A DNA stretch of 40,668 nucleotides, from positions 1 to 40,668 of IMG/VR virus record IMGVR_UViG_3300035410_000041; one strand, given 5' to 3'. Every line of letters starts with the position of its first letter. Positions within the stretch are counted from its first letter, which is position 1. The notes beneath the pieces were generated by a model. That model worked only from the letters and a program-made list of their open reading frames with translations. It ran no database searches and was not told where the DNA came from. The translations under genes and the position numbers were made by a program. Source of the DNA: a virus. This document shows positions 9,217-40,475 of the stretch, one piece after another.

Positions 9217-9492
9217 ATGGACGCGATTACCTGGGTAACGATCGGCTGTTGCATTGTGACGCTTTTGGGTACGGCTGCAGGCGCCGTGCTCTTCGGCCTG
9301 GCGAGCTGGGCGCTGTTGCAAGCGATCAGGCAGGGTACAGAGATCGCAACACTGAAAGCCGAGCGCACGGCCGACAAGGAAGAAAACAATCGCCGTTTCG
9401 GAGAGGTCAAACTGCAGCTCGTGGAAATTAGAGGCCTTTTGATCGACGCGCTGCAGTTGCACAGAAACCGCGATAAGCCTGGGAGGCCGTAA
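9217..9492 (+). CDS. Small membrane protein with N-terminal helix and coiled coil
   Basis: A 91-aa protein with one long hydrophobic segment (residues about 4-30, ITWVTIGCCIVTLLGTAAGA) followed by a charged, probably coiled-coil helix (ATLKAERTADKEENNRRFGE). The ATG at 9217 follows GGAGAG. It has the general shape of small phage membrane proteins found in late operons (holin-like or spanin-like), but nothing identifies its role. It lies between the decoration and connector genes. Confidence 0.55.
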   Translation: MDAITWVTIGCCIVTLLGTAAGAVLFGLASWALLQAIRQGTEIATLKAERTADKEENNRRFGEVKLQLVEIRGLLIDALQLHRNRDKPGRP

Positions 9493-9504
9493 CTGAGGTG
9501 AGCC

Positions 9505-9702
9505 GTGAAGGACCGGAACAAGCACATCATCCGGTACTGCGGGGAATGCCTGAAAACTTCGACGTTTGTGTTGTGTGTGGACGGGTTGTGGCGCTGCGCT
9601 GGTGACTATCAGACGCAGCGCGAAGGGTGCGGGAAGGTTTTGCAGACGTCTGCAAACAACAGAGATTTGGTTCAACCAAATCCTCGCGGGGAAAGACGAT
9701 GA
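9505..9702 (+). CDS. Small zinc-ribbon protein
   Basis: A 65-aa protein starting at GTG 9505 after a good GAGGTGAG. CGEC near residue 12 and two later Cys (WRC, EGCG) suggest a minimal zinc ribbon. The second copy of the 18-bp palindrome lies near its 3' end and is read as LQTSAN, as in terL. It overlaps the next gene by 4 bp (ATGA). Function unknown. Confidence 0.55.
   Translation: MKDRNKHIIRYCGECLKTSTFVLCVDGLWRCAGDYQTQREGCGKVLQTSANNRDLVQPNPRGERR
9639..9656. repeat. 18-bp perfect palindrome, copy 2 of 4
   Basis: TTTGCAGACGTCTGCAAA again, in the same codon phase as copies 1 and 4. The sequence around it differs, so only the palindrome itself is conserved. It ends 42 bp before the connector gene start. 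Confidence 0.85.
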
Positions 9703-10115
9703 GCCTGCAGAGCACGATGAAAACGGATCTGGGAGTGTTCTTCAACTCCGATGATTTCGCCGTTCCCATCGTCTATTCGGCGGCGGTCGTGAACGGTTCT
9801 GGCGGATCGCCGGCCGGCATTTCTCCGCGAACGATCAACATGATGATGGAAGACGAGATCGATCCGGAGTTCGAGACGGCGACGGCGGATCTCGATTACG
9901 ACGTGGCCATCTTCCATATCCGATCGGACAACGATCAGACCGGCGTTTACACGGTGACTGAACAAGGCCGCGGGAGCGCCGGCGACAGTTTCACGCTGAA
10001 CGGAACGACCTGGTACGTGAAGAAGAAAAAGATCCGGCCGAACGATGCGGCAACGTTCGAGCACATTCTCGTCTGCAGCACATCGCAGGCGCCGCTGCCG
10101 GATTACTTTGGTTGA
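9699..10115 (+). CDS. Head-tail connector (gpFII-like / head-tail joining protein)
   Basis: A 138-aa protein with the usual form of FII-like joiners: a short N-terminal part with DLGVFFNSDDFAVPIVY, a variable glycine-rich loop, and a C-terminal beta-rich domain with FTLNGTTWYVKKKKIRPNDAATFEHILV. Such proteins complete the neck of the filled head so that the tail can bind. The ATG overlaps the preceding stop, and a tail-gene cluster follows, which agrees with this role. Recognised by pattern, not by alignment. Confidence 0.6.
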   Translation: MSLQSTMKTDLGVFFNSDDFAVPIVYSAAVVNGSGGSPAGISPRTINMMMEDEIDPEFETATADLDYDVAIFHIRSDNDQTGVYTVTEQGRGSAGDSFTLNGTTWYVKKKKIRPNDAATFEHILVCSTSQAPLPDYFG

Positions 10116-10123
10116 GGTGACGT

Positions 10124-10534
10124 ATGCCTGACAATTACGCAACCGCTGGTAATGCCGGCTTCCGTATTTCTTCCTGGACTTTCGGCGCTGTTACTTTGCT
10201 TGGCAAGGTTCGCTGCCTGATCGAAAAGATCGTTCAGTTTGAGCCTGTTTTCGCGGACGCGAACAACTTTCCTGAAATCAAATCGGTTGATTTCGTGGAT
10301 GCTCGCGCGACGCTGGAATCGCTCGATAATCTTGTGGCTCAAGCCGAATCGGCCACAGCCGCGAATCTCACGTTGAATTTCAGCGAAGCGAACGGTTCCG
10401 GATCTGGCGGCGTCGTAATCGGCGCCATGAAGCCGGGGAGCGTCACGCATACACAGCGCCGGCAAATGGGCGGATTCGGGGTCGCGCAGGTTTACGAGCT
10501 GTCGGGAACGCTGACATATACACCGACGAATTGA
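10124..10534 (+). CDS. Putative tail structural protein
   Basis: A 136-aa protein of beta-rich composition (ANLTLNFSEANGSGSGGVVIGAMKPGSVTH and ELSGTLTYTPTN at the end). Its place after the head-tail connector and its size would suit a tail tube or tail terminator protein. I cannot name the family. A glycine-rich loop near residue 100 may be flexible. It is one of a tightly spaced run of late genes (8 bp after the connector). Confidence 0.5.
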   Translation: MPDNYATAGNAGFRISSWTFGAVTLLGKVRCLIEKIVQFEPVFADANNFPEIKSVDFVDARATLESLDNLVAQAESATAANLTLNFSEANGSGSGGVVIGAMKPGSVTHTQRRQMGGFGVAQVYELSGTLTYTPTN

Positions 10535-10541
10535 GGGCGCA

Positions 10542-11117
10542 ATGGCTGAAACGATTGCTGAAAAGCTGGTGAATTCCGTCGATACGGCTGCCGATGCGCT
10601 CATGGAGGCCAAGATCGACATTCAGGATCTGCGCAAGATCCTTGAGGCGAAGTTGGTGCCTGGCGAATTTCCGAATCCGAATGCTCCGATCGCCGAACTC
10701 CGACCGTGCGGACAGTGCGACGGCGTTTTTTTTCTCGATGATCAATTGAGTTTCGATGAAATCTCTGATTCTGAAATGATGGCACGTGCGCATGGAAGCT
10801 TGCAGCGCCAGGCGCTGAGGTATCTGCGGCCGATGTCACGTGTCTGGTATGCGCATCGCGTTCATCTGTTGCAGGATGGGACGAAGCCGACCGGAACATC
10901 AAAGCCGGAAGTTGATTTCCTGATCACGCCCGAAATGCGCGCGATCGCGGCGAAGTACGACGTTCCGGAAGTCGGATTCAAGCGCCGGATTCGTTGGATG
11001 TTCAACCAGGAAGAGCATTGCATCAGCGCAGTTCAACCGCAGCATCGGCGTCGTTTCAGAATTTTCCCGGTCACTCACCTGGAGCCCGAGGGCATATGGG
11101 GCGTTTTATATATCTGA
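10542..11117 (+). CDS. Hypothetical protein with CxxC, tail-gene cluster
   Basis: A 191-aa protein. An N-terminal helical part (AEKLVNSVDTAADALMEAKI) is followed by a CGQC motif and a central acidic section. The C-terminal half is basic and ends in RRRFRIFPVTHLEPEGIWG. An eight-T run at 10726-10733 lies early in the gene, but a -1 shift there would end after a few codons. It overlaps the next gene by 22 bp. Possibly a tail assembly protein by position; no family recognised. Confidence 0.5.
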   Translation: MAETIAEKLVNSVDTAADALMEAKIDIQDLRKILEAKLVPGEFPNPNAPIAELRPCGQCDGVFFLDDQLSFDEISDSEMMARAHGSLQRQALRYLRPMSRVWYAHRVHLLQDGTKPTGTSKPEVDFLITPEMRAIAAKYDVPEVGFKRRIRWMFNQEEHCISAVQPQHRRRFRIFPVTHLEPEGIWGVLYI

Positions 11118-11455
11118 TTTTGTGGCCAGTCCGTGCGCTGTACGGATTATTGGCGCTGGCGGTCATCTTCATTTGCGGCGTTTGTGTCGCCTTTTTTGGC
11201 TGCGAGATCAAACGACGCGACGAACGCGATGGGCAACGACTGACCGAGGACGCGAGTTATGTCGCGCCGGATCTGGACAACGACGATGAATTGCGGCGCT
11301 GGCTGAACGATCTTTCTCCGGCTGATCGCCTGGAAGTTGTCAATATCTGGTATCAGCGCCAGGCGGCGCAGTGCGGCCGGGTTGGAGAGACGGTTGAAGT
11401 CTGGGGAGAGCGGCGCCGGGTTCAGCGCGAAGCGGCGCTGGCGCAACGGAATTGA
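11096..11455 (+). CDS. Small membrane protein in the tail cluster
   Basis: A 119-aa protein with a strong transmembrane segment at residues about 3-32 (IYLILWPVRALYGLLALAVI) followed by a polar, charged tail containing DNDDELRRWLNDLSPADRLEVV. The ATG at 11096 lies inside the end of the previous gene. No family recognised. A membrane anchor in the middle of a tail operon is unexpected; a lysis or superinfection role is as likely as a tail role. Confidence 0.5.
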   Translation: MGRFIYLILWPVRALYGLLALAVIFICGVCVAFFGCEIKRRDERDGQRLTEDASYVAPDLDNDDELRRWLNDLSPADRLEVVNIWYQRQAAQCGRVGETVEVWGERRRVQREAALAQRN

Positions 11456-11483
11456 AGTTTGATCATTCAGGGAAAGCAGATGA

Positions 11484-11978
11484 ATGGCTGCGTTTGTCAT
11501 CACTCCCAACGGTGCAGGCGCCATCTCGTTTGCGGCGATGATCGGCGACAACTCTGAATTCACCGTTGCAAGCAAATGGTGGATCAAACGGCCGGTTCCC
11601 AGATTTCCACGTTACGGAATGGACTTTCAGAAAGGTCCTGCTCAGGCGGGACAGATTGTTCGCCGGCATGATTTTGACGGCCGTCCGATCGACAACATTG
11701 AAGTGATGTACATCGACACGAGCGCGGCAAACATCCTTACATCTTTTGTAAACGATTTGAAAGCGATGGTGAACATTCAGGGCGGATCATCGGTATCGAT
11801 ACCTGACTGGCCGAACGATGCAACATACGCGAATCCGTTTCCGGCGTGCGAGCTGATCATGTGCGAGCCGATCGTTTACCGTGATGGACGTTACATCAAA
11901 CCCACTGGCGGCGGGACGCCGACTCCGACTTTCAAAATGCATGTAACGATGGCGTTCAAGCAACTGAGGCTTTCGTAA
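11484..11978 (+). CDS. Putative virion protein, tail cluster
   Basis: A 164-aa protein with no signal peptide, of mixed beta character (FVITPNGAGAISFAAMIGDN, then FDGRPIDNIEVMYIDTS, and near the C-terminus TFKMHVTMAFKQLRLS). The ATG at 11484 follows GGAAAG. It sits directly before the tape-measure candidate, so a tail tube, terminator or initiator role is plausible. I do not recognise the family. Confidence 0.5.
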   Translation: MAAFVITPNGAGAISFAAMIGDNSEFTVASKWWIKRPVPRFPRYGMDFQKGPAQAGQIVRRHDFDGRPIDNIEVMYIDTSAANILTSFVNDLKAMVNIQGGSSVSIPDWPNDATYANPFPACELIMCEPIVYRDGRYIKPTGGGTPTPTFKMHVTMAFKQLRLS

Positions 11979-11983
11979 TGTTA

Positions 11984-12003
11984 TTTTCCTTGAGCAAGGA
12001 AAA
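11984..12003 (+). promoter_or_regulatory. Hairpin covering the ribosome binding site of the tape-measure gene
   Basis: TTTTCCTT (11984-11991) pairs with AAGGAAAA (11996-12003) around GAGC; CAAGGAAAA/TTTTCCTTG is a perfect 9-bp repeat. The 3' arm contains AAGGA, the only SD-like sequence for ATG 12011. Folding would hide it, so translation may be controlled or coupled to the gene before. Confidence 0.6.
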
Positions 12004-12010
12004 AACGTAA

Positions 12011-13411
12011 ATGGCAAGGCGACGAAGGAAAGGGCGATCCTTTCTTAAAACTCTGAAACAGGTTCACAAGGCAGCAAAGCTGTCCGTGCGCCATCATCTC
12101 GAGGCATATCTCGGGATGGATATGGGCATCATGTCCGGCGCTGAGAAAAAGCGCGTTCAGTCGCTGATTAACTTTTCGAACGCGACGGCAACTCCCACGA
12201 GGTTCGGCGCGGATAAGCAATATGGTGGACTGACAGTAAATCTCGGCAAGAAAATCGTCGCGATGGGATCGAACGTTCCTGGAGAGTTGCAAGGCTATGC
12301 AATGATGGCAGCGTCCGGCTCCGGAGATATGTCGGAGCAGCAATTGCTCGCGAAGCTTCGAAGCGGAATGGGGATTTCTAAATCCGGAGAGACCTGGCTG
12401 AATGGCGTGACAGGAAGCATTCAGCGATCTGTGCAGACTGCGGCGCGAGCCGGCACGCTGTGGAATACAGCACAGCAAGGCGGACTAGCCGGTGCATCGG
12501 CGCAAGCCGGCTTGCTGCAAATGGGCGTCGATAAGGTCAACGATATTGCGTCCAGTAAGACGATGGAAAAAGTGCTGGTTACGGCATCGGAAAAGCTGTT
12601 TTCGAATCCGATCGCAGGTCAGCAACTGTTCTATGCGATCGGCCGCGGTCTGCGGCTGGGCGGCGGGATCGTGACGGCGGCACTGATGGCCTGGCAGGTC
12701 GGAGAGTCGTATTTCACGAATCGCGGGCGCCAGGCAACCGCTGAGGGTGCGGTCTATGACCAGGCGCGTCAGGCTGGTCTGAATTATTCGCCAGAAGCTC
12801 GCGCTCAACGGGATGCGATCGCCAAGACGGTCGAGGCGGCTTCGCCGTTCGATCGCATGCTGGACAAGCTCGGGTTCGGCGGCGGGTTGGCAGAAGCAAA
12901 GGCAAAGGAAGAATCGAAAGCGATTCAGGCATTTCAAACGGCTCGGGCGAATGCCGGAAAGCTGGGAATTGATACGAGCGGATTACTTGCGGCCTACGCT
13001 GCAGCGCGCGGTTTGAAAGTTCAGCAGCTCAATGAGAGACAGCGCAACGAGGCAATTAACGCTGCTGTCGCCGCGAAAATGAAGCAAAACCATGATTCAG
13101 CGGCCGCGGATGCATATGCAAGATCACAAGTTGCGATTCGCGGTCAGGATTCTTTCGGCCACTGGCTAATCACGAGCCGAGCGACGCTCGACGCGGAGAA
13201 GGAACTCTATCGGAATGAGTTTGCTCAGCGGAGTACGGCGGATCGGGCCGTTGCTCAAGTTCAGGAGCAAATCACACAGTTTTTGAACTGGCGCATCGAG
13301 CAGCTTCGGAACGATCCGCGCTTTGAAGAAAAGATCAAGGAGAAGATGCGTGCCGGCGATTACGAGGTTCGCAATGCAAGACAGCGGCATGCGGTGCTTT
13401 GGACCGATTGA
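12011..13411 (+). CDS. Tape-measure-like tail protein (putative)
   Basis: A 466-aa, almost wholly helical protein with a very basic N-terminus (ARRRRKGRSFLKTLKQVHKAAK), a Gly-rich hydrophobic stretch near residue 220 (AIGRGLRLGGGIVTAALMAWQV), and long Ala/Gln-rich helices after it. Those properties, and the position before the fibre and tip genes, fit a short tape measure that would set tail length and help DNA entry. A length of 466 aa would give a short tail, if the usual relation of length per residue holds. An ejection protein is another option. Its ribosome binding site lies in a hairpin. Confidence 0.5.
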   Translation: MARRRRKGRSFLKTLKQVHKAAKLSVRHHLEAYLGMDMGIMSGAEKKRVQSLINFSNATATPTRFGADKQYGGLTVNLGKKIVAMGSNVPGELQGYAMMAASGSGDMSEQQLLAKLRSGMGISKSGETWLNGVTGSIQRSVQTAARAGTLWNTAQQGGLAGASAQAGLLQMGVDKVNDIASSKTMEKVLVTASEKLFSNPIAGQQLFYAIGRGLRLGGGIVTAALMAWQVGESYFTNRGRQATAEGAVYDQARQAGLNYSPEARAQRDAIAKTVEAASPFDRMLDKLGFGGGLAEAKAKEESKAIQAFQTARANAGKLGIDTSGLLAAYAAARGLKVQQLNERQRNEAINAAVAAKMKQNHDSAAADAYARSQVAIRGQDSFGHWLITSRATLDAEKELYRNEFAQRSTADRAVAQVQEQITQFLNWRIEQLRNDPRFEEKIKEKMRAGDYEVRNARQRHAVLWTD

Positions 13412-26957: not shown

Positions 26958-27269
26958 ATGGGGTTTATCGAAATTCTCTTACATGTCGCGCTGATGCTCT
27001 CCGCCTTCTGGCTGGCGGTGCTGATCAAGGATCGCGCGGCTCGCAAGCTCGTCGCGCTGGCCTGGCGCTGGCGCAAGGATTCCAAGGAATGTCAATGTGA
27101 GATCGTTCGCCTGACTCTCGAGGCGCAGCGCTGGAAAGGCGCGTCGATTTCGATGGGCGTCTGGAATCGCGATGCAGAGAAGGTCAACGAAGAACTCAAG
27201 AAGCAAATCGAACGGCTCGAGCTGGAGCTCGCCAAACATAAGATTCCCAATGGGATGGACCGCGAATGA
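26958..27269 (+). CDS. Membrane-anchored coiled-coil protein
   Basis: A 103-aa protein: one N-terminal transmembrane helix (IEILLHVALMLSAFWLAVLI, residues about 4-23), a basic stretch, and a C-terminal coiled coil (AEKVNEELKKQIERLELELA). The layout is like that of inner-membrane spanins, but it is next to early genes, away from any lysis gene I can see. Overlaps the next gene by 4 bp. Confidence 0.5.
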   Translation: MGFIEILLHVALMLSAFWLAVLIKDRAARKLVALAWRWRKDSKECQCEIVRLTLEAQRWKGASISMGVWNRDAEKVNEELKKQIERLELELAKHKIPNGMDRE

Positions 27270-27529
27270 GCGAACCGAAATTGATCACGCTCGGCGAGCT
27301 GCCGACGGAGCTGTGCGCAGAGTTCGAACGATGCTTCGACATTCGCTTCGGCCGGCGCGCTACAACGCGCGAGATCCCTGGCGCGTTCGGCGTCCGCAGC
27401 GTGTGCGTGCTGCCGTGCTGGCCGGAGGCGCATATCAAGCGGATGAAGGACTACTTCAACGGCTGGCAGGATTCGCGGAAGCGTTCGACTTCGGCGATGG
27501 CCACCCAAGCAGGAGGAACGGCAGTATGA
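27266..27529 (+). CDS. Hypothetical protein before parB
   Basis: An 87-aa protein with an acidic N-terminal part (LGELPTELCAEFERCFDIRF) and two later Cys. It overlaps both neighbours by 4 bp and leads into parB. No family recognised. Confidence 0.5.
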   Translation: MSEPKLITLGELPTELCAEFERCFDIRFGRRATTREIPGAFGVRSVCVLPCWPEAHIKRMKDYFNGWQDSRKRSTSAMATQAGGTAV

Positions 27530-29271
27530 GCAAACCAAAGGAAGAAGCGGCCGCGGCGGTCCTCGATGAGCCGGCAAAGGCAGAAGTCAAGACTTTGCAG
27601 ACGTCTGCAAAGTCGACGCCGGCGGATCTGCGGGTGATTAAGCTCGCGGAGCTGAGCGAATCATCGACGAATCCGCGCAAGCATTTCAACCAGGACAGGC
27701 TCGAGGAGCTTGCCGAATCCATTCGCAAGTCCGGCGTCCTGGTGCCGTTGATCGTCCGCAAGAAGAACGCGAAGTTCGAGATCATCGCCGGCGCACGACG
27801 CTTTCGCGCGGCGAAGCTGGCTGGCCTGGCGGAAGTGCGCTGTCTGATCCGTGAGTACACGGACGTCGAGGCCTTGATCGTCCAAGTCGTCGAGAATGAG
27901 CAGCGCGAAGACGTAGAGCCGCTCGACCAGGCCGAAGGCTATGCGGCGCTGATGAAGACCGCAAAGCTCGACGTGGAGCAGATCGCGGCGAAGGTCGGGA
28001 AGTCCCCGAGCTTCGTCTATCAGCGGCTGAAGCTGGCGGAGCTGATCGAGCCGGCGAAGACATTGATGGCTGAGGGGCTGCTTTCTCCAGGTCACGCGAT
28101 CCTGATCGCACGGCTGCAGCCGAAGGATCAGGAGCTGGCGCTCCGGCGCGCATTCTGTCCGGCTGGATACTTCGCACAGCATGAACGCCAGAAGCCGATC
28201 GAGGAGGTTGTAAAGGCCGCGCGCGGCGGAAAAAGCTTCGGCATGTATGACCCGCCGGCGGCGATTGAATCAGTCCGCGGCCTGGCGCAGTTCATCGAAG
28301 AAGAGATCCACTGCAATCTGAAGGAATCGAAGTTCGACAAGCAGGATGCGGCGCTTGTGCCGGAGGCCGGCTCGTGCGCGGTGTGCCCGAAGCGAACGAT
28401 CAACAACCCGAACCTGTTTGACGCCAAAGAGGACCGCTGCACGGATCCGGCGTGCTTCAAGCTGAAGTGCACGGCGTTCGTGAAGCAGCAGCAGAAGAAG
28501 GCCGGCGAGGACCTGGAGGAAGGCCAGAAGGTTCTCCGGGTCAAAAGCGAATGGGGCGGCAAGACGCCGTCCGGCGCGCTGAAGTCCGGAGAATTCGAGA
28601 CGGTCAAGAAAAGCGACAAGGGCGCGGTTCCGGCGGTGGACGTGGACAGCGGGAAGATTCTTTACGTCAAGCCGAAGGAGCCCACTGGCCGGCGTGCCGA
28701 AAAGAAAATGACGGATGAGGAGCGCCAGGAGCATCAGCGCAAGCTGGCTGAGAAGATCAAGGTCGAGGACCTGCGGAGGAAGCTGATCTTCAAGAAGATC
28801 GCGGCGCAGGTGAAGGGCGAACTCAATCGCGAAATGCTCGAGGAGTGGGCGGAGGAAAGGATCCCGCACGCTCCCGACGATCTCAAACTGCTCAGCGAAG
28901 TGATCGGCAAGCCGGTCGGCCGCAATTCACTCAGCAAGCTCTCAGACGCCGAACTGCGGCGCGTGATCAATCTTGGCGACCTGGCGCAGAAGGCGAGCTG
29001 CCATCAGGAGTACGAATTGTCTCGGGACAATTGGGAAGTCAAAGAGCTCTACGAAGCGGCGAAGCAGCTCAAGATCGATCTGGCGGAGATCGACGAAGCC
29101 GTGAAGTGCGAGATCTCCGGCGTCGCGCCCGACAAGAAAAAGGCAACGGACAAGGCTCCGTCGCCGGCGGAAGTGGCGAAGGTCATGAAGGCGGAGAAGG
29201 CAAAGCTGGCGAAGAAGAATCCGGCGCTTCAAAAGGTGATCTCCAAGGTCAACAAGGGAAAGAAGAAATGA
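27526..29271 (+). CDS. parB: ParB/Spo0J-family DNA-binding protein
   Basis: The 581-aa protein has the ParB N-terminal domain (residues about 35-130) with CTP-site boxes GARRFRAA (89-96) and ENEQRED (123-129), and an HTH (EQIAAKVGKSPSFVYQRLKL, 151-170). A cysteine cluster of the type SCAVCPKRT...NLFD...CTDPACF near 275-315 follows, as in plasmid and phage ParB-like proteins. The C-terminal half is Lys-rich. A good AGGAGG precedes ATG 27526. There is no ParA gene nearby, so it may organise or mark DNA rather than partition a plasmid. One palindrome, TTTGCAGACGTCTGCAAA, lies in its own 5' end. Confidence 0.85.
   Translation: MSKPKEEAAAAVLDEPAKAEVKTLQTSAKSTPADLRVIKLAELSESSTNPRKHFNQDRLEELAESIRKSGVLVPLIVRKKNAKFEIIAGARRFRAAKLAGLAEVRCLIREYTDVEALIVQVVENEQREDVEPLDQAEGYAALMKTAKLDVEQIAAKVGKSPSFVYQRLKLAELIEPAKTLMAEGLLSPGHAILIARLQPKDQELALRRAFCPAGYFAQHERQKPIEEVVKAARGGKSFGMYDPPAAIESVRGLAQFIEEEIHCNLKESKFDKQDAALVPEAGSCAVCPKRTINNPNLFDAKEDRCTDPACFKLKCTAFVKQQQKKAGEDLEEGQKVLRVKSEWGGKTPSGALKSGEFETVKKSDKGAVPAVDVDSGKILYVKPKEPTGRRAEKKMTDEERQEHQRKLAEKIKVEDLRRKLIFKKIAAQVKGELNREMLEEWAEERIPHAPDDLKLLSEVIGKPVGRNSLSKLSDAELRRVINLGDLAQKASCHQEYELSRDNWEVKELYEAAKQLKIDLAEIDEAVKCEISGVAPDKKKATDKAPSPAEVAKVMKAEKAKLAKKNPALQKVISKVNKGKKK
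27591..27614. repeat. Palindrome copy 4 of 4, extended to 24 bp, inside parB
   Basis: The 18-bp palindrome (27594-27611) is here extended by GAC/GTC on each side, giving a perfect 24-bp inverted repeat about 65 bp into parB, read as LQTSAK. ParB proteins often bind near or inside their own genes, so this is the first candidate for the ParB site. Confidence 0.85.
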
Positions 29272-29900
29272 GCGCACCCAAGCACATTTTCATCGTCGGC
29301 GCGGCTGGCTCGGGGAAGACGGAGTTCGCTCGGCTGCTCGCCGCGGAACTCAGGACTGAGGGCCAAGGACTGAGGACTGAGGTGGTGACAGCGGAGCCTT
29401 TGGCACTTTCATCTCGGTCTTCCGTTCGTTGGCGGATTGCGGAGTGCGGGGATGTGTTGATTCGGATGCTGGCGTTCATCCAGGCGCACGGGCCGTGGCC
29501 TGGGTGCGAGCCGGCGGATCTGTGGGCGGCGTTCATCCGCAAGCGGAAGGAAGAATATCGCCGGCAGCTCCGCGCGCTGGGTGATCTGCTGGCGCTCCGT
29601 GCGCCTGGCTGCCTGATCGATGAGTGCGCGGACAACGGGGAGATCGTGGTCGGGGCGCGGCGGAAGGCGGAACTGGAAGGATTCTACACGAAGTACGGCG
29701 CCATGCACTTAGACGACGTCATGAGCGGACGGATTCCGCATGCGTGGATCTTCATAGAGCGGCCGGGTACCGGGCTGGCGAACGATTCGTTCGATCGGGA
29801 GTTCTTCGAGAAGTTTTGCCGGCATCACATCATTAATCGCGGAGATCTGGCGGCGCTCGAGAAGGAAGCGGCGTTTCTGGCCGCGGCGTTGAAGGGCTGA
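29268..29900 (+). CDS. P-loop nucleotide kinase-like protein
   Basis: A 210-aa protein with N-terminal P-loop GAAGSGKT (residues 11-18) after a hydrophobic strand (HIFIVGAAGSGKTEFARLLA), as in (deoxy)nucleotide kinases and small ATPases. Later EEYRRQLRALGDLLALRAPG and LIDECADNGE may be the Walker B region. A heptamer array (29353-29380) is read as LRTEGQGLRTE just after the P-loop helix. The start overlaps parB by 4 bp. A deoxynucleoside monophosphate kinase is likely but not shown. Confidence 0.65.
   Translation: MSAPKHIFIVGAAGSGKTEFARLLAAELRTEGQGLRTEVVTAEPLALSSRSSVRWRIAECGDVLIRMLAFIQAHGPWPGCEPADLWAAFIRKRKEEYRRQLRALGDLLALRAPGCLIDECADNGEIVVGARRKAELEGFYTKYGAMHLDDVMSGRIPHAWIFIERPGTGLANDSFDREFFEKFCRHHIINRGDLAALEKEAAFLAAALKG
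29353..29380. repeat. Heptanucleotide tandem array, 4 units, in kinase gene
   Basis: GGACTGA-GGGCCAA-GGACTGA-GGACTGA, four 7-bp units, 28 bp, read as part of the kinase. It is a host-type short tandem repeat. Confidence 0.75.
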
Positions 29901-34478: not shown

Positions 34479-34510
34479 CACACAGGGCACAGAGAACACA
34501 AAGGAGCGAC
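34479..34510. repeat. CACAGAG-type repeat supplying a ribosome binding site
   Basis: Right after the stop TAG (34476-34478) comes CACACAGGGCACAGAGAACA, then AAGGAG, which serves as SD for ATG 34511. A similar block follows another stop at 37108-37135. These are host-type repeats used as gene spacers. Confidence 0.65.
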
Positions 34511-35183: not shown

Positions 35184-35489
35184 ATGAGCGAATTTGTGAT
35201 TACGGCGGTATCGGCGCAGCTCGAGCGGATCCTGGAGGATTGCGCCGTGGCCGGGCTGGGGTGCAAGTTTGAGCTTTGGCCCCTCGATGGATCGCTTCCG
35301 GCTCGCACGATCGAGCGGAAGGAAGGACGGCCGGCATTGCCGGCGCCGGCGGAGCCAATTCGACAACCTAAAGGCGAGCTAGAAGCGCAGCGGTTATGTC
35401 CGCATTGCTCGAAGCCTCTGCGCAAGGATAACCGGCGCGGGGTCTGTACGAAGTGCGCCACCGCGGGAAAAGCACTGCCGGCGAAGTGA
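35184..35489 (+). CDS. Small protein with C-terminal zinc ribbon
   Basis: A 101-aa protein. The first 50 residues are mixed (ITAVSAQLERILEDCAVAGL), then a Pro-rich linker, then a ribbon CPHCSKPLRKDNRRGVCTKC. The ATG at 35184 follows GGAGGATGAG. It overlaps the sigma-factor gene by 4 bp when that begins at GTG 35486. It may act together with it, because the sigma factor also ends in a ribbon; this is inference. Confidence 0.6.
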   Translation: MSEFVITAVSAQLERILEDCAVAGLGCKFELWPLDGSLPARTIERKEGRPALPAPAEPIRQPKGELEAQRLCPHCSKPLRKDNRRGVCTKCATAGKALPAK

Positions 35490-36169
35490 CGACGGATCGT
35501 CGCCGGCGCAGTGTCATACCGTCTGAGCTTTCCCCTGAACAGTCGAAGCTGTTCGAGGAGTACAGCGTTTATGCCAAGCGCATTGCGGAGCGCTGGGCTG
35601 GAAAGCGGAATCTGCTGTTCGATCTCCCACGTTTTGAGAATTCGGCGCTGATCGGTCTGCTCGAGGCTGTTCGCAAGTTTGATCCGGCGCGCGGATTCCG
35701 GTTCAAAACGTACCTGATTCCGATCGTGGTCGGCCGCGTGCGGGATGAGGCGCGGGCGCTGGATACTGTGCCGCGCATGGCGCGATCGCGGGGCGAGCCG
35801 ATCAAAGAGACGCATTCGATCGACGAACCGCTCCAGGACGGCAACCAGGTGCGGACAATGCCAGATGAACGCGCTCCGGATCCGGCCGGACAGGCTGAGT
35901 GCGAAGAAGAAAAGAAGATGGCGCTGGAGCTCGTTCCGCCCGGCCAGGCGCGGGAAGTGTGCGAGCTCTACTACATGCAGAATTTTACGATGGCGCAGAT
36001 CGGCGAGAAGCTTGGGTTGTCGGAATCGCGGATCTGCCAGATTCACAGAAACGCGCTCGATGACGCGCGGCGCGCGGCGCGGACGAAAGTCTGCATCAAA
36101 TGCGGTCAGCGGCCGAAGCGCGATGGATTCGATCACTGCCGGAATTGCATGGAGGCCTGGGGGCAATGA
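35486..36169 (+). CDS. Phage sigma factor (sigma-70 family, FliA-like) with C-terminal zinc ribbon
   Basis: Directs host RNA polymerase to phage promoters. The 227-aa protein has sigma region 2 (ALIGLLEAVRKFDPARGFRF, then KTYLIPIVVGRVRDEARALD), a linker close to region 3, and region 4 with HTH (MAQIGEKLGLSESRICQIHR). A ribbon CIKCGQ...CRNC is added at the C-terminus, which is not usual. Start GTG 35486 overlaps the previous stop; GTG 35453 is the longer alternative. Overlaps the primase gene by 4 bp. Probably the switch to late transcription. Confidence 0.85.
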   Translation: MTTDRRRRSVIPSELSPEQSKLFEEYSVYAKRIAERWAGKRNLLFDLPRFENSALIGLLEAVRKFDPARGFRFKTYLIPIVVGRVRDEARALDTVPRMARSRGEPIKETHSIDEPLQDGNQVRTMPDERAPDPAGQAECEEEKKMALELVPPGQAREVCELYYMQNFTMAQIGEKLGLSESRICQIHRNALDDARRAARTKVCIKCGQRPKRDGFDHCRNCMEAWGQ

Positions 36170-37107
36170 CGGATCTGATCCAGGAGCTCAAATCGCGCCT
36201 CTCGATTCTCGATGTCGTTTCTCGGGATGAGGGCGAATTTAAGAATGGCTCGCGCGGGAAGATGGTTTGCGCGGCGCATGAGTCGCTCACTGTCGATACG
36301 GCGCGCGGGGTGTGGTCGTGGTTCTCGCAGACGCCGGGGCGCGGGCAGAAGTGTCTCGGTGGGGATGTGCTCTCGTGGATTGCTTACAAGCGCTTCGGGC
36401 GCGTCGACGTCGACGGGGAGCAGTTTGTTGAAGTCATTAAGCGCGGCTGTGAATTGGCGGGAGTGCCGTTTCCTGAAAAAAGTGAAGGCGGAAGGCACAA
36501 GGCAGAAGGCAGACGACGGATTGAATCGATCCTGGCGAAGTACTGCGAGGTGGCGGAGGACGCGCGGGACGTGGAGTTTTTCGTGAGAGCCAAGCAGCGC
36601 AAACAGTATCTCTCTCGCGAAGTGATCGAGCGCTGGCGGATCGGGAACGCTCCGAGCTTGAAGCAGTGCCTGGACGCCGGCATGGCGGAGGATGAGCTTC
36701 GCAGCGTCGGCATTCTGCTCAAGGGTCCGGAAGAGCGCGAGTTCATGTTCTTCCGCGATTCGATGGTGATTCCGTTCATCGAGGGCGGGCGCGTCGTCTA
36801 CTTTACCTCGCGGCGCCTGGTCGATCACTTTCCGGACGGCCGGCCGATCGAGAAGGGCAAGAAGTGCCTGTATCTGCGATCGCCGCAGCAGGGGCCGGCA
36901 GACAAGGGGCCAGACGGCGGCGTGGCGCGGCCGGCGGGGTTCAACCTGGAGGCGCTGTATCATCCGGCGGCGAAGCTGGTCGGGATCCGGCTGGTCGAGG
37001 CGCCGCTGGACGCGATCGCGGCGACGGAGCTGGAGCGGCCGGCGATCGCGATGCTGGGCGGGTACCCGAGCAATGAGCTGTGTGAGCGGATTCGAAAAGC
37101 ATCTTAG
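36166..37107 (+). CDS. DnaG-type primase, N-terminal part with half TOPRIM domain
   Basis: A 313-aa protein starting like DnaG (DLIQELKSRLSILDVV). The CHC2 zinc module is only partly kept (MVCAAHESLTVD and KCLGGDVLSWI). A palm N-terminal domain (about 120-270) follows. It ends just inside the TOPRIM domain: VRLVEAPLDAIAATELE with its catalytic Glu at about 278, then IAMLGGYPSNELC and a stop. The DxD half of TOPRIM is absent here but stands at the start of the gene at 38202. A heptamer array lies in the linker (36484-36511). Confidence 0.85.
   Translation: MTDLIQELKSRLSILDVVSRDEGEFKNGSRGKMVCAAHESLTVDTARGVWSWFSQTPGRGQKCLGGDVLSWIAYKRFGRVDVDGEQFVEVIKRGCELAGVPFPEKSEGGRHKAEGRRRIESILAKYCEVAEDARDVEFFVRAKQRKQYLSREVIERWRIGNAPSLKQCLDAGMAEDELRSVGILLKGPEEREFMFFRDSMVIPFIEGGRVVYFTSRRLVDHFPDGRPIEKGKKCLYLRSPQQGPADKGPDGGVARPAGFNLEALYHPAAKLVGIRLVEAPLDAIAATELERPAIAMLGGYPSNELCERIRKAS
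36484..36511. repeat. Heptanucleotide tandem array, 4 units, in primase gene
   Basis: GAAGGCG-GAAGGCA-CAAGGCA-GAAGGCA, four 7-bp units, 28 bp, between the zinc module and the palm domain, read as EGGRHKAEGR. Confidence 0.75.
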
Positions 37108-37135
37108 CCACAGAGAGCACAGAGGAGGCAGAGAA
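37108..37135. repeat. CACAGAG-type repeat at the primase break point
   Basis: After the stop TAG of the primase N-half (37105-37107) comes CCACAGAGAGCACAGAGGAG, then GCAGAGAA. It holds GGAGG, the SD of the next gene (ATG 37136). It resembles the block at 34479 and lies exactly at one end of the cassette that divides the primase. Confidence 0.7.
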
Positions 37136-37375
37136 ATGACAATGCAGGAGACGGCGGAAGAGCTGGTGAATTTGTTTGAGCAGCGTCGAATTTTGGAGAA
37201 CGACGCCAGGACGCTTGCCAACAAACAGAACGAAAATCAGGCTGCATATGCGCGGATTGAGAAAGCGCTGCAGGAGTTCGTCGGGGAAAGTGTCCCGAAG
37301 CGCTTCGTGCGAGTGGAAAACGTCGTCGTGTGTATCGAGAAAGCGAAATCCACGGACATCCGGGCGCTTGAATGA
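37136..37375 (+). CDS. Hypothetical coiled protein, cassette inside split primase
   Basis: A 79-aa, helical, acidic protein (AEELVNLFEQRRILENDART) with a short beta end (KRFVRVENVVVCIEKAKSTD). The first of three genes between the primase halves. Overlaps the next by 4 bp. No family recognised. Confidence 0.55.
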   Translation: MTMQETAEELVNLFEQRRILENDARTLANKQNENQAAYARIEKALQEFVGESVPKRFVRVENVVVCIEKAKSTDIRALE

Positions 37376-37572
37376 AGTCAAAGCGGATGAAATGCGGGGC
37401 TTGCGGTGGCGAAGTATTCCGGCTGTCGGTGCGGGATGCGTTGACGGGGACTGAAATGCTTGCGGAGTGCGAAGGGTGCGGGAGCACATCAATTGTGCGG
37501 CCGTCGACGCCGAAGCTGGTCGTGATCTGGGGCGAGCATAGTGAAGGCGTGCTGGAGAGGATTGAGGAATGA
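37372..37572 (+). CDS. Small zinc-ribbon protein, cassette
   Basis: A 66-aa protein with CGAC near residue 8 and CEGC near residue 33, a two-knuckle zinc ribbon. Overlaps both neighbours by 4 bp. Ribbon proteins of this kind often bind nucleic acid or RNA polymerase; no family recognised. Confidence 0.6.
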   Translation: MKSKRMKCGACGGEVFRLSVRDALTGTEMLAECEGCGSTSIVRPSTPKLVVIWGEHSEGVLERIEE

Positions 37573-38183
37573 AGGAACGGCCGATTCTCTTTAGTGCGCC
37601 AATGATCAAAGCGATTCTGGAGCGCAGAAAACGGCAGACGCGCCGGATCATTCGGGCCGATCATGCTGAAGGCATTGAGACCGATGACGGAGAGCCATCT
37701 GGCAAATTCTCTTTCATGCATGCGCCGGACTGTGGCGGATATTGCGATTATGGTTGCGCCGCGGCCGGCGAGGTCCTCGACGGTCATATCGGATGGACAC
37801 CATGGGGAAGCAATCCGCGGCACTGGGGGAAATTGTGGGTTCGTGAAACATTTCAGATTCATGAAGTCGATGACGTTCAGGGCGACCGCGTATTTTACAG
37901 AGCCGACGATCCGTTAATCAATGCTCGATGGAAAATTGCAAAATGGAAGCCTGCGATTTTTATGCCTCGCTGGGCTTCGCGAATAACGCTGCAGATTCTC
38001 AACATCCGCGTCGAGCGAGTCCAAGAAATTACTGAAGCGGACGCCCAAGCTGAGGGCTTTGGCGGTCCTTCTGGTGAAACCTCGATCGATCAATTTCGTC
38101 GGCTGTGGGACGTAATAAACGGCAAGCGAGCGAGTTGGGAAAGCAATCCCTGGGTGTGGGTGATCGGCTTCAAGACTGCGTAA
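37569..38183 (+). CDS. ASCH-like phage protein, cassette
   Basis: A 204-aa protein of a family frequent in phage genomes. It starts with KERPILFSAPMIKAILERRK and QTRRII, then KLWVRETFQIHEVDD, PAIFMPRWASRITLQILNIR, and the C-terminal WESNPWVWVIGFK. Such proteins resemble ASCH domains (RNA or modified-base binding) but have no proven role. Last gene of the cassette, 18 bp before the primase C-half. Confidence 0.75.
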   Translation: MKERPILFSAPMIKAILERRKRQTRRIIRADHAEGIETDDGEPSGKFSFMHAPDCGGYCDYGCAAAGEVLDGHIGWTPWGSNPRHWGKLWVRETFQIHEVDDVQGDRVFYRADDPLINARWKIAKWKPAIFMPRWASRITLQILNIRVERVQEITEADAQAEGFGGPSGETSIDQFRRLWDVINGKRASWESNPWVWVIGFKTA

Positions 38184-38201
38184 CGGTGGACGGGGCGATG
38201 A

Positions 38202-40475
38202 ATGCGGTTCTATCTTGCGCTGGACGGGACGAAGGATGTTACGCAGGCAACTCGGTGCGAGCGGGCGGCGCTCGTCGGGAAATTCTGTTCGGTCTGTCTG
38301 CTGCCTGAAGGGAAGGATCCGGATGAGCTCACGTCGGAGCAGTGGGAGCAGATCGAGGGCGAAAGCCGACCTGTGCTTGACGAGTACTGCGATCTTGTCG
38401 CTCACCTGGTCGACGACCACAAGCGAGTACAGCTTGACAAACTTCGTGAATCGATCGCGGCATGGAATCAGCAAGATCCAGGCGGAGCGCCTGATGTCCG
38501 CGCTTCGGTCTGTGGGGTGCTTGGATGGACCGAGCATGAGTATACGGAGTGGCTCGGCGCCGGCAGGGGTCAGGGGTCAGGGGCCAGGGGCCAGAATAAG
38601 AGTGCGGGCGCCGCTGGCGTACGTGCTGGCGGGGCGGGAGCGGCCGGATCGGGCAGTGGAGCTGCTGCTCAAGCGGCCGGCGATCAGCCAGGACAACCCG
38701 AGCCGATCGGGCCGGCTCCGCGGGCCGGCGAAGAGCGGAAGGTAATCGCGAACTTCTATTGGGAGTCGCGGTATGTGCCGGACAAGAAAGGAATCGCGAC
38801 GCAGGCCGGCGTGAATACGGAGATCCGCAAGGAATGGAGCGAGCTGAAGGCGCTGGACAAGGCTCGCACGAAGGACGGGAAGGACGGCCGGGACATCAAG
38901 GACAAAGAGCGCTTTGATGAGCTGGTGAAGAAGTTCGGGGCTGAAGAAAAGCGGATCTGTGTGGCGAAGTCGATCGACCAGATCCGCGATGAGATTGCAG
39001 TGGTGCTCAATGGCTGGCCGTTTCGCGTGACCTGGGGCGTGTTGTTCGTTGACTGCGGCGACGGGAAGGTGCGCTTGATCGAGAAGGCCATCGAGCTCCA
39101 GGCGCTTCTGCAGGAGTACGCGGTGTTGAAGTTCAACCGCGGACAGGATGACGACTTTACGAATTTTGTGAACATGGAAGCGTTGTACGAATCGTTTTGC
39201 GGGTCGCAGTTTGTGCGGGAGTGGCGCGCGGTGGAAGAATATCCATACGAACCGTCGATCGCAGCGCATTACTGCACCTGGCGTGCGCCGGATTATACGC
39301 CGACCGGGGAGTACTTCGTACACCTGCTGAAGATGTTCAATCAGATCACCGATCCGAGCTCGCGCGCGATCTTCGCCGCGGCGATCGCGACGCCGTTCTG
39401 GGGCGGTCCGTATGGTAAGCGGCCGGCGTTCGTCTTCGAGGCGAATAAGCCGCGTTCGGGCAAGACCACGGCCGCGTCGACGATCGCGAAGCTGTGCGGC
39501 GGGCCGATCGTGATCAATCTCGATCGCCGGGCTGAGGAGCGGCTGAAAGAGCGCCTGCTCTCGCCGGAGGGGCTCACCAAACGTGTCGGCCTGGTCGACA
39601 ATCTGACCAAGACACTCGATTCGGATCTGATGGACGAGCTGGTGACGATCGAGGCGATCAGCGGCAAGGTGCTGGGCGTCGGCGAAGGCTCGCGGCCGAA
39701 CGTGATGACGTACTTTATCACGGCGAATAATGTGAGGCTCTCGCCTGATTTCGCGCGGCGCTGTTTCTACGTGAAATTCGATTCGCCGGATGCCTCCGGG
39801 AAGTGGGAAGTCGAGCTGGACGCTTTTGTGCGCGAACACGCGTCGAAGATCGTCGCGGACGCGCTGAGCATTCTCAGACGGCCGGCGCCGGCGTTCGACT
39901 GGGGCCAGGTCAAAAACGAAGGCTTTCCTCTGTGGGTGCAGGAAGTCCTGGTGCGCGTGGCCGGCTTCGGACCTATCGCGGAGGTGGTGGGCGGGATCGG
40001 CGCGCTGAAAATCGTGCAGAAGAACCAGGAGCGCCGCGTCGAGGCTGATCAGGACGTTGAGGATGCCGAGACTTTCGCACAGGGGCTCATGGAGCGGCTT
40101 GTCGGCTGGCAGGGCTATACGAAGAGCCCTCTGTGCGAGATTCTGCCGAGAGAGCCTGTATTCATCAGGACGACGCCTCCGCCGGAGAGCTCACGCGGGA
40201 CGATGGAGGACATCGAATGGCGCGCGGAGCTGAAGAATAATTTGGCGACGTACTACTGCGAGATCTTCACGCGGCATGAGGTCTCCGCGAAGTGGCTCAA
40301 GCCGTGGCTTGAGGAGCACATTGCGGCAGGACGCATTCCATGGATGTGGTGGAACCGAAGCGCGACGAAGCGTGGATTCTACATCGATCACAAAGCAATC
40401 GTCGCGTACTGCGAAAAGCAAGCGTCAGACGCGTCACAAGCGTCAGCGAAGGAACGTGCGGCAGTGACGGAATGA
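38202..40475 (+). CDS. Primase C-terminal half (TOPRIM) fused to helicase
   Basis: A 757-aa protein. It starts inside a TOPRIM fold: FYLALDGTKDVTQATRCERA, then CLLPEGKDPDEL, i.e. the DxD-type strand and the LP-GKDPDE segment that follow the half encoded at 36166-37107. A Gly/Ala-rich linker (residues about 120-180, encoded after a heptamer array) leads to an AAA/SF3-like helicase with Walker A KPRSGKTTA (about 415-423), a Walker B-like VGLVDN (about 466) and SPDFARRCF (near 519, Arg finger). The two primase halves would need to join as separate chains. Iteron-like repeats overlap its end. Confidence 0.8.
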   Translation: MRFYLALDGTKDVTQATRCERAALVGKFCSVCLLPEGKDPDELTSEQWEQIEGESRPVLDEYCDLVAHLVDDHKRVQLDKLRESIAAWNQQDPGGAPDVRASVCGVLGWTEHEYTEWLGAGRGQGSGARGQNKSAGAAGVRAGGAGAAGSGSGAAAQAAGDQPGQPEPIGPAPRAGEERKVIANFYWESRYVPDKKGIATQAGVNTEIRKEWSELKALDKARTKDGKDGRDIKDKERFDELVKKFGAEEKRICVAKSIDQIRDEIAVVLNGWPFRVTWGVLFVDCGDGKVRLIEKAIELQALLQEYAVLKFNRGQDDDFTNFVNMEALYESFCGSQFVREWRAVEEYPYEPSIAAHYCTWRAPDYTPTGEYFVHLLKMFNQITDPSSRAIFAAAIATPFWGGPYGKRPAFVFEANKPRSGKTTAASTIAKLCGGPIVINLDRRAEERLKERLLSPEGLTKRVGLVDNLTKTLDSDLMDELVTIEAISGKVLGVGEGSRPNVMTYFITANNVRLSPDFARRCFYVKFDSPDASGKWEVELDAFVREHASKIVADALSILRRPAPAFDWGQVKNEGFPLWVQEVLVRVAGFGPIAEVVGGIGALKIVQKNQERRVEADQDVEDAETFAQGLMERLVGWQGYTKSPLCEILPREPVFIRTTPPPESSRGTMEDIEWRAELKNNLATYYCEIFTRHEVSAKWLKPWLEEHIAAGRIPWMWWNRSATKRGFYIDHKAIVAYCEKQASDASQASAKERAAVTE
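38566..38593. repeat. Heptanucleotide array that sets the reading frame into the helicase
   Basis: GGGGTCA-GGGGTCA-GGGGCCA-GGGGCCA, four 7-bp units, 28 bp. Without these 28 bases the frame would change to one with strong GC at third positions that ends at TAA 38743-38745. With them the frame runs on into the helicase. Confidence 0.75.

Follow-up and report, generated by a model that had tools for sequence, protein, structure and literature searches.

A DnaG-type primase gene divided inside its TOPRIM domain in two diverged phages

The glutamate and the DxD motif of TOPRIM domains jointly bind metal (PMC5517523). In phage T4, two genes separated by mobA and 60.1 encode the large subunit of topoisomerase II as gp39 and gp60. 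On translation of the T4 record (NC_000866, 2458-5328), gp39 contains LTEGDSA, the Glu motif, and gp60 contains MTDADHDG, the DxD motif; gp60 also matches TOPRIM_C and, weakly, Toprim (positions 43-70/96). Such gene splits are described in a review of T4 mobile elements, according to which the divided NrdA of phage Aeh1 keeps its function (PMC2988022). Here we describe a DnaG-type primase whose TOPRIM domain is divided between two genes, 36166..37107 and 38202..40475, of IMG/VR record IMGVR_UViG_3300035410_000041 (positions 1-40,668; this whole stretch is referred to as the window). The same cut is found in a diverged relative, contig IMGVR_UViG_3300019891_000045 (L002), and the gene is unbroken in contig IMGVR_UViG_3300037504_000736 (L066). 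Taken as a whole, the locus is probably the product of an ancestral fission, with co-expressed chains that form an inter-chain TOPRIM metal site in a primase-helicase.

The two halves and their relatives

The upstream gene (36166..37107, + strand) encodes a 313-aa protein, the N-chain, which consists of a degenerate zinc-finger-like N-terminus, a DnaG RNA-polymerase core and the first half of a TOPRIM domain (beta1-alpha1-beta2-alpha2) with the catalytic Glu (VEAPLDAIA); its reading frame ends with ...LVEAPLDAIAATELERPAIAMLGGYPSNELCERIRKAS and a stop codon. The N-chain matches the DNA primase family phrog_6444 (E 1e-8, and 2e-13 for the joined halves) and matches Pfam DNAG_N with an E-value of 4e-5 and 24.1 bits, slightly below the curated cut-off of 26. 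Its AlphaFold2 model, with a mean predicted local distance difference test (pLDDT) score of 77, ends in a beta-alpha-beta-alpha arrangement that corresponds to half a TOPRIM, and the best Foldseek matches of this model are without exception DnaG catalytic cores, namely 2au3 (E 8e-12), 3b39, 1eqn and 5vaz (range 8e-12 to 1e-5).

The downstream gene (38202..40475, + strand) is immediately preceded by an in-frame stop codon (38199-38201) and encodes the 757-aa C-chain, which starts with MRFYLALDGTKDVTQATR...LLPEGKDPDEL. On its own, this protein has no notable family match; its first 44 residues (38202..38333, + strand; MRFYLALDGTKDV...LPEGKDPDELT) are the remainder of the TOPRIM domain and are followed by a P-loop ATPase/helicase-like region, in which a P-loop (SGKTT) precedes a Walker-B-like strand (VGLVDN) and a FITANN segment, an arrangement that appears to resemble phage replicative ATPases.

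The first-pass annotation had proposed that the gene at 36166-37107 stops in the middle of a TOPRIM domain, after the Glu strand, and that the missing half opens the gene at 38202; both proposals hold. The joined halves match positions 2-87/88 of Pfam Toprim_2 with 22.6 bits in the window and 27.5 in L002 (curated cut-off 22.1), next to 28.3 bits for the unbroken L066 protein; by itself, the L002 N-half covers positions 2-40/88 only (16.4 bits), and the N-half of the window gives no Toprim match in the Pfam search. Based on the joined match, the alignment and the profile test described below, the first half of the domain, up to about position 40/88 of Toprim_2, is assigned to 36988..37104 (+ strand). 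For that test, a hidden Markov model (HMM) of the second TOPRIM half was built from eight intact DnaG-type primases, with 1000 shuffles and all other open reading frames (ORFs) of both split phages as controls. The C-chains scored 18.4 (window) and 10.5 bits (L002), above the best shuffle (7.3) and all remaining ORFs of the two phages, so that the presence of a TOPRIM second half is not due to chance. Moreover, the junction falls in the same alignment column in both split phages and is gap-free relative to the eight intact primases, the joined halves thus fitting DnaG-type primases without loss at the break.

L002 belongs to the same phage lineage as the window (portal 43%, head 44-51% identity), and its chains are 44% (N) and 39% (C) identical to those of the window, with both frames open and the cut at the same residue (...ELVRLLKRAC and a stop codon, then MRIYLALDGTKDV...). 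Identity between the two phages rises to 59% in the second half of TOPRIM, higher than for the C-chain as a whole. In L066 (9301-12396), whose phage is otherwise distant from the window (portal 23%), both chains lie in one frame of 1031 aa that is 42% and 36% identical to the N and C halves, respectively; its junction reads RRASEVTPYLALDG/RRASEVTPYLALDGTDDV, compared with RKAS/MRFYLALDG (RKAS/MRFYLALDGTKDV) in the window, whose joined halves are one residue short at the break relative to L066. A tree that includes nine other primases groups the three proteins in one clade (100/100), within which the split pair are sisters (91/67). The joined fit and these two relatives also answer the question of whether the chains are complete members of different families or fit TOPRIM poorly, which the tests did not find.

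All viral scans for relatives were pattern-based. A scan with a VE(G/A)P(L/F)DAIA-type TOPRIM pattern returned at least 119 stretches and, among the matches listed, recovered the split relative again (L014) and one intact protein of the same clade (L066). A scan for further split members with a Met-plus-TOPRIM-strand pattern yielded L002 only, plus L016, which was rejected as a false match to a structural protein. The genome scan returned chromosomal Chloroflexota DnaGs only, which serve as an outgroup. A portal-based search found two siblings of the window and distant phages, with the primase region in none of the stretches compared (for the siblings, the first 15.6 and 9.1 kb). These siblings, contigs L020 and L021 from other samples, match the window with 100% identity over 15.6 and 9.1 kb. 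Both stop exactly at window position 1, pointing to either a true end of the genome or an assembly break that recurred.

Because the window is a metagenomic contig and the genome carries an integrase and a repressor, the divided gene might be regarded as a pseudogene or an assembly artefact in a decaying prophage. This is hardly credible, since the same cut occurs in an independent contig from another sample, whose chains are 44%/39% identical and whose frames are both open, and both halves are conserved up to the break. The identical cut in the diverged L002 and the whole gene in L066 instead indicate a stable gene fission, neither decay nor misassembly. The simplest history is that the gene divided once, in the ancestor of L002 and the window phage, and that the content of the spacer was later replaced.

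The spacer and its surroundings

Between the halves (37108..38201, + strand) lie the three small genes that the first-pass annotation had placed there: 37136..37375, encoding a predicted helical protein of 79 aa with no family in family searches; 37372..37572, encoding a 66-aa protein with two CxxC pairs that is zinc-ribbon-like, as judged from weak Pfam matches and its sequence; and 37569..38183, whose 204-aa product is an ASCH-like accessory protein of family phrog_874 (E 3e-54; one relative is annotated ASCH). All three are on the + strand and form a translationally linked set, the second overlapping the first through ATGA. With matches in 334 phage records, phrog_874 is common phage cargo. 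The spacer of L002 measures 311 bp, compared to 1094 nt in the window, and holds an antisense ORF of 83 aa that has a strong Shine-Dalgarno sequence, AAAAAGGAGCCAATATG. The only similarity between the two spacers is a 21-nt stretch that matches at 90% (E 0.003 for a comparison of these two alone). It lies in unrelated reading frames and was taken as chance; a shared origin of the spacers was rejected.

The G+C content of the window spacer (55%) is below that of the halves (61-63%), and this, together with the common accessory gene it carries and the support of only 91/67 for a single origin of the split, would be compatible with a three-gene cassette having broken the window gene and an independent insertion having broken that of L002. 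We regard this as improbable: two unrelated insertions would be needed between the same two codons, a less likely history than one fission, and neither target-site duplications nor inverted ends beyond chance were found at either spacer. Family searches detected no HNH or GIY-YIG homing endonuclease among the spacer proteins. Thus, of the earlier idea that a three-gene cassette split the primase, the location of the genes stands, but a causal role is not demonstrated, as the cut of L002 is identical around unrelated cargo; the cassette amounts to cargo that can be replaced and for the same reason may have arrived after the fission. Likewise, a CACAGAG repeat does lie at the left break (37109 and 37118, right after the TAG stop of the N-gene), as had been noted, but not as a sign of insertion: a further copy at 34488 precedes another gene start, and at the break the element contains AGAGGAGG, the Shine-Dalgarno sequence for the gene at 37136, so that it is read as a leader.

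Self-splicing introns and translational bypass both occur in phage replication genes, and a conserved catalytic region is a typical intron site, so that the spacer could in principle be removed or skipped to make one unbroken protein. This is very unlikely. Neither the window nor L002 gave an Rfam match at gathering level, and even at a permissive E-value of 5 no match of intron type appeared around the spacers; there is no known intron at the locus. In addition, the spacers lack credible similarity, their genes have starts of their own (antisense in L002), and their lengths of 311 and 1094 nt greatly exceed the 50-nt bypass of T4 gene 60.

The window as a whole is a temperate tailed-phage contig of 40.7 kb with genes for a terminase, a portal, a head protease/major head protein, a tail protein, an integrase, a CI-like repressor and a ParB-like protein. 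Its last 5 kb contain an operon in which a sigma-factor-like gene is followed by the N-chain, the three small genes and the 757-aa gene. Neighbouring genes overlap by ATGA at 36166, 37372 and 37569 and are otherwise separated by short gaps. The sigma-factor-like gene (35453-36169; phrog_351, E 2.5e-17) heads this replication operon directly upstream of the N-chain, whose start lies within the first of these overlaps. Repeat-like stretches at 36485-36520 (GGCGGAAGGCACAAGGCAGAAGGCAG) and 38565-38600 (GGGGTCAGGGGTCAGGGGCCAGGGGCCAG) lie in frame within linkers of both chains and resemble host-type intergenic repeats. Elsewhere, an ORF with a P-loop (IFIVGAAGSGKTEFARLLAAEL) and no PHROG family occupies 28845-29900 and overlaps the end of the ParB-like ORF (27172-29271).

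Active-site residues and proposed assembly of the chains

The catalytic Glu that ends beta1, Glu278 of VEAPLDAIA, is invariant in the window, L002 and L066. Five of the six acidic positions of the E. coli DnaG site (E265, D269, D309, D311, D345 and D347) do not vary among the three proteins, namely Glu278 and Asp282 in the N-chain and Asp8, Asp39 and Asp41 in the C-chain. A further Asp12, four residues after Asp8, is also invariant (D-G-T-x-D).

From these sequences we infer an ancestral fission, assembly in trans and primase activity. The ancestor would have been a single chain, as in L066, that joined a DnaG-like primase to a P-loop helicase-like domain, and the fission would have occurred between alpha2 and beta3 of TOPRIM before the lineages of the window phage and L002 separated; the break would have cost essentially no residues, translation of the C-chain beginning at a Met just ahead of beta3. 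The spacer would then have behaved as an ordinary intergenic site, which different accessory genes entered in each lineage. In the window, both chains would be made from one transcript and, once co-expressed, associate, with the N-chain contributing beta1 with Glu278 and Asp282, and the C-chain beta3 and beta4 with Asp8, Asp39 and Asp41, together with the KDPD segment. Because beta1 and beta3 are adjacent in the TOPRIM sheet, the metal site would lie on the chain interface, and assembly would couple the primase core to the helicase part, given the P-loop and Walker-B-like features of the rest of the C-chain. The conservation strongly suggests that one active site is formed in trans. On a narrower proposal, which presents the enzyme as a natural two-subunit DnaG-type primase-helicase with an inter-chain TOPRIM metal site and rewired D-G-T-x-D ligands, and the break as a permissive docking site for exchangeable cargo where chain association could gate priming, our opinion is evenly balanced.

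Several points weigh against a working primase assembled in trans. The order of the TOPRIM elements noted in the first-pass annotation, Glu strand and then DxD strand, is present as strands, but the DxD that ends beta3 is not intact: it reads DGTKD in the window (38223-38237) and in L002 (6022-6036), and DGTDD in L066 (within 9301-12396), the second Asp being replaced by Thr, which is a departure from TOPRIM given the joint role of Glu and DxD in metal binding. The CHC2 zinc ligands are missing from the alignment in all three members, with L066 matching Zn_ribbon_DnaG at 20.8 bits (cut-off 24.9). Catalysis may therefore be altered or lost, and, as the unbroken L066 has both changes too, they are not decay that followed the split. 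Furthermore, the AlphaFold2 model of the C-chain, made from two sequences, has a pLDDT of 36 and is too poor for use; a single operon is less certain in L002 because of the antisense gene between its halves; and the split members recovered by the scans number two, from one phage lineage.

The DGT in place of DxD and the absence of CHC2 ligands even in the unbroken protein raise the alternative that the TOPRIM part no longer primes, the N-chain being kept as a DNA-binding or scaffold protein and the C-chain as a helicase, with the cut tolerated since catalysis had already gone; animal Twinkle, a primase-helicase, is known to have lost catalysis in its primase domain (PMC3610141). We consider this somewhat unlikely in view of the five invariant acidic positions, the additional invariant Asp and a TOPRIM second half that is better conserved between the split phages than either whole chain. 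It can also overlap with assembly in trans, as the chains could still associate. Most likely, the two halves reassemble into one enzyme, as proposed for the split T4 topoisomerase, because the identical cut recurs in a second, diverged phage, where it encloses unrelated genes, and a third phage keeps the gene whole.

Comparison with fused and divided phage enzymes

TOPRIM is a central catalytic fold of nucleic-acid enzymes, and a conserved cut in a primase with an unbroken relative constitutes a natural control. The split primase makes it readily possible to test how two chains can build a catalytic Rossmann-like domain, and also bears on how replication genes survive fission and on whether a primase can function with a changed DxD. 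As each half alone scores as weak or unknown, annotation may make such phages seem to lack a primase.

With DnaG-type primases (E. coli; the A. aeolicus catalytic core; phrog_6444, for example of Leptospira phage LE3), the window enzyme shares the RNA-polymerase core and the order of TOPRIM motifs, as well as the gap-free alignment at the break and the fold of the N-chain. Unlike them, it consists of two chains, has DGTxD for DxD, has lost the CHC2 ligands and is fused to a P-loop ATPase. The fused primase-helicases of Bacteroidales phages (Porphyromonas phage019b, 1331 aa; MT835875) likewise have a DnaG-type N-terminus followed by a P-loop ATPase, but they are single chains with intact zinc finger and DxD, and homology of the ATPase part is not established (hhalign, two rows each). 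A split DnaG-type primase was not found in the literature searched.

Phage enzymes of other kinds are divided as well. The Pol III alpha of group 2.2 jumbo phages (PMC7824862) is, like the window primase, a replication enzyme divided between genes within its catalytic part; it differs in enzyme and fold, and its genes lie far apart. In Aeromonas phage Aeh1, nrdA is similarly split into two chains within a functionally critical region, with function retained (PMC2988022), but by insertion of the mobE endonuclease, whereas no homing endonuclease family is present in the window spacer. T4 gp39 and gp60 differ in being a topoisomerase, in their association with the mobA homing endonuclease and in their intact DxD; like the window, they have a TOPRIM cut between the Glu and DxD motifs, with other genes in the gap. 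Given this T4 cut, a TOPRIM shared by two chains is not new with the window, and a split of the catalytic fold is less unusual than had been supposed. Aeh1 nrdA and the T4 topoisomerase would appear to be working precedents of split phage enzymes, the latter being cut inside TOPRIM itself.
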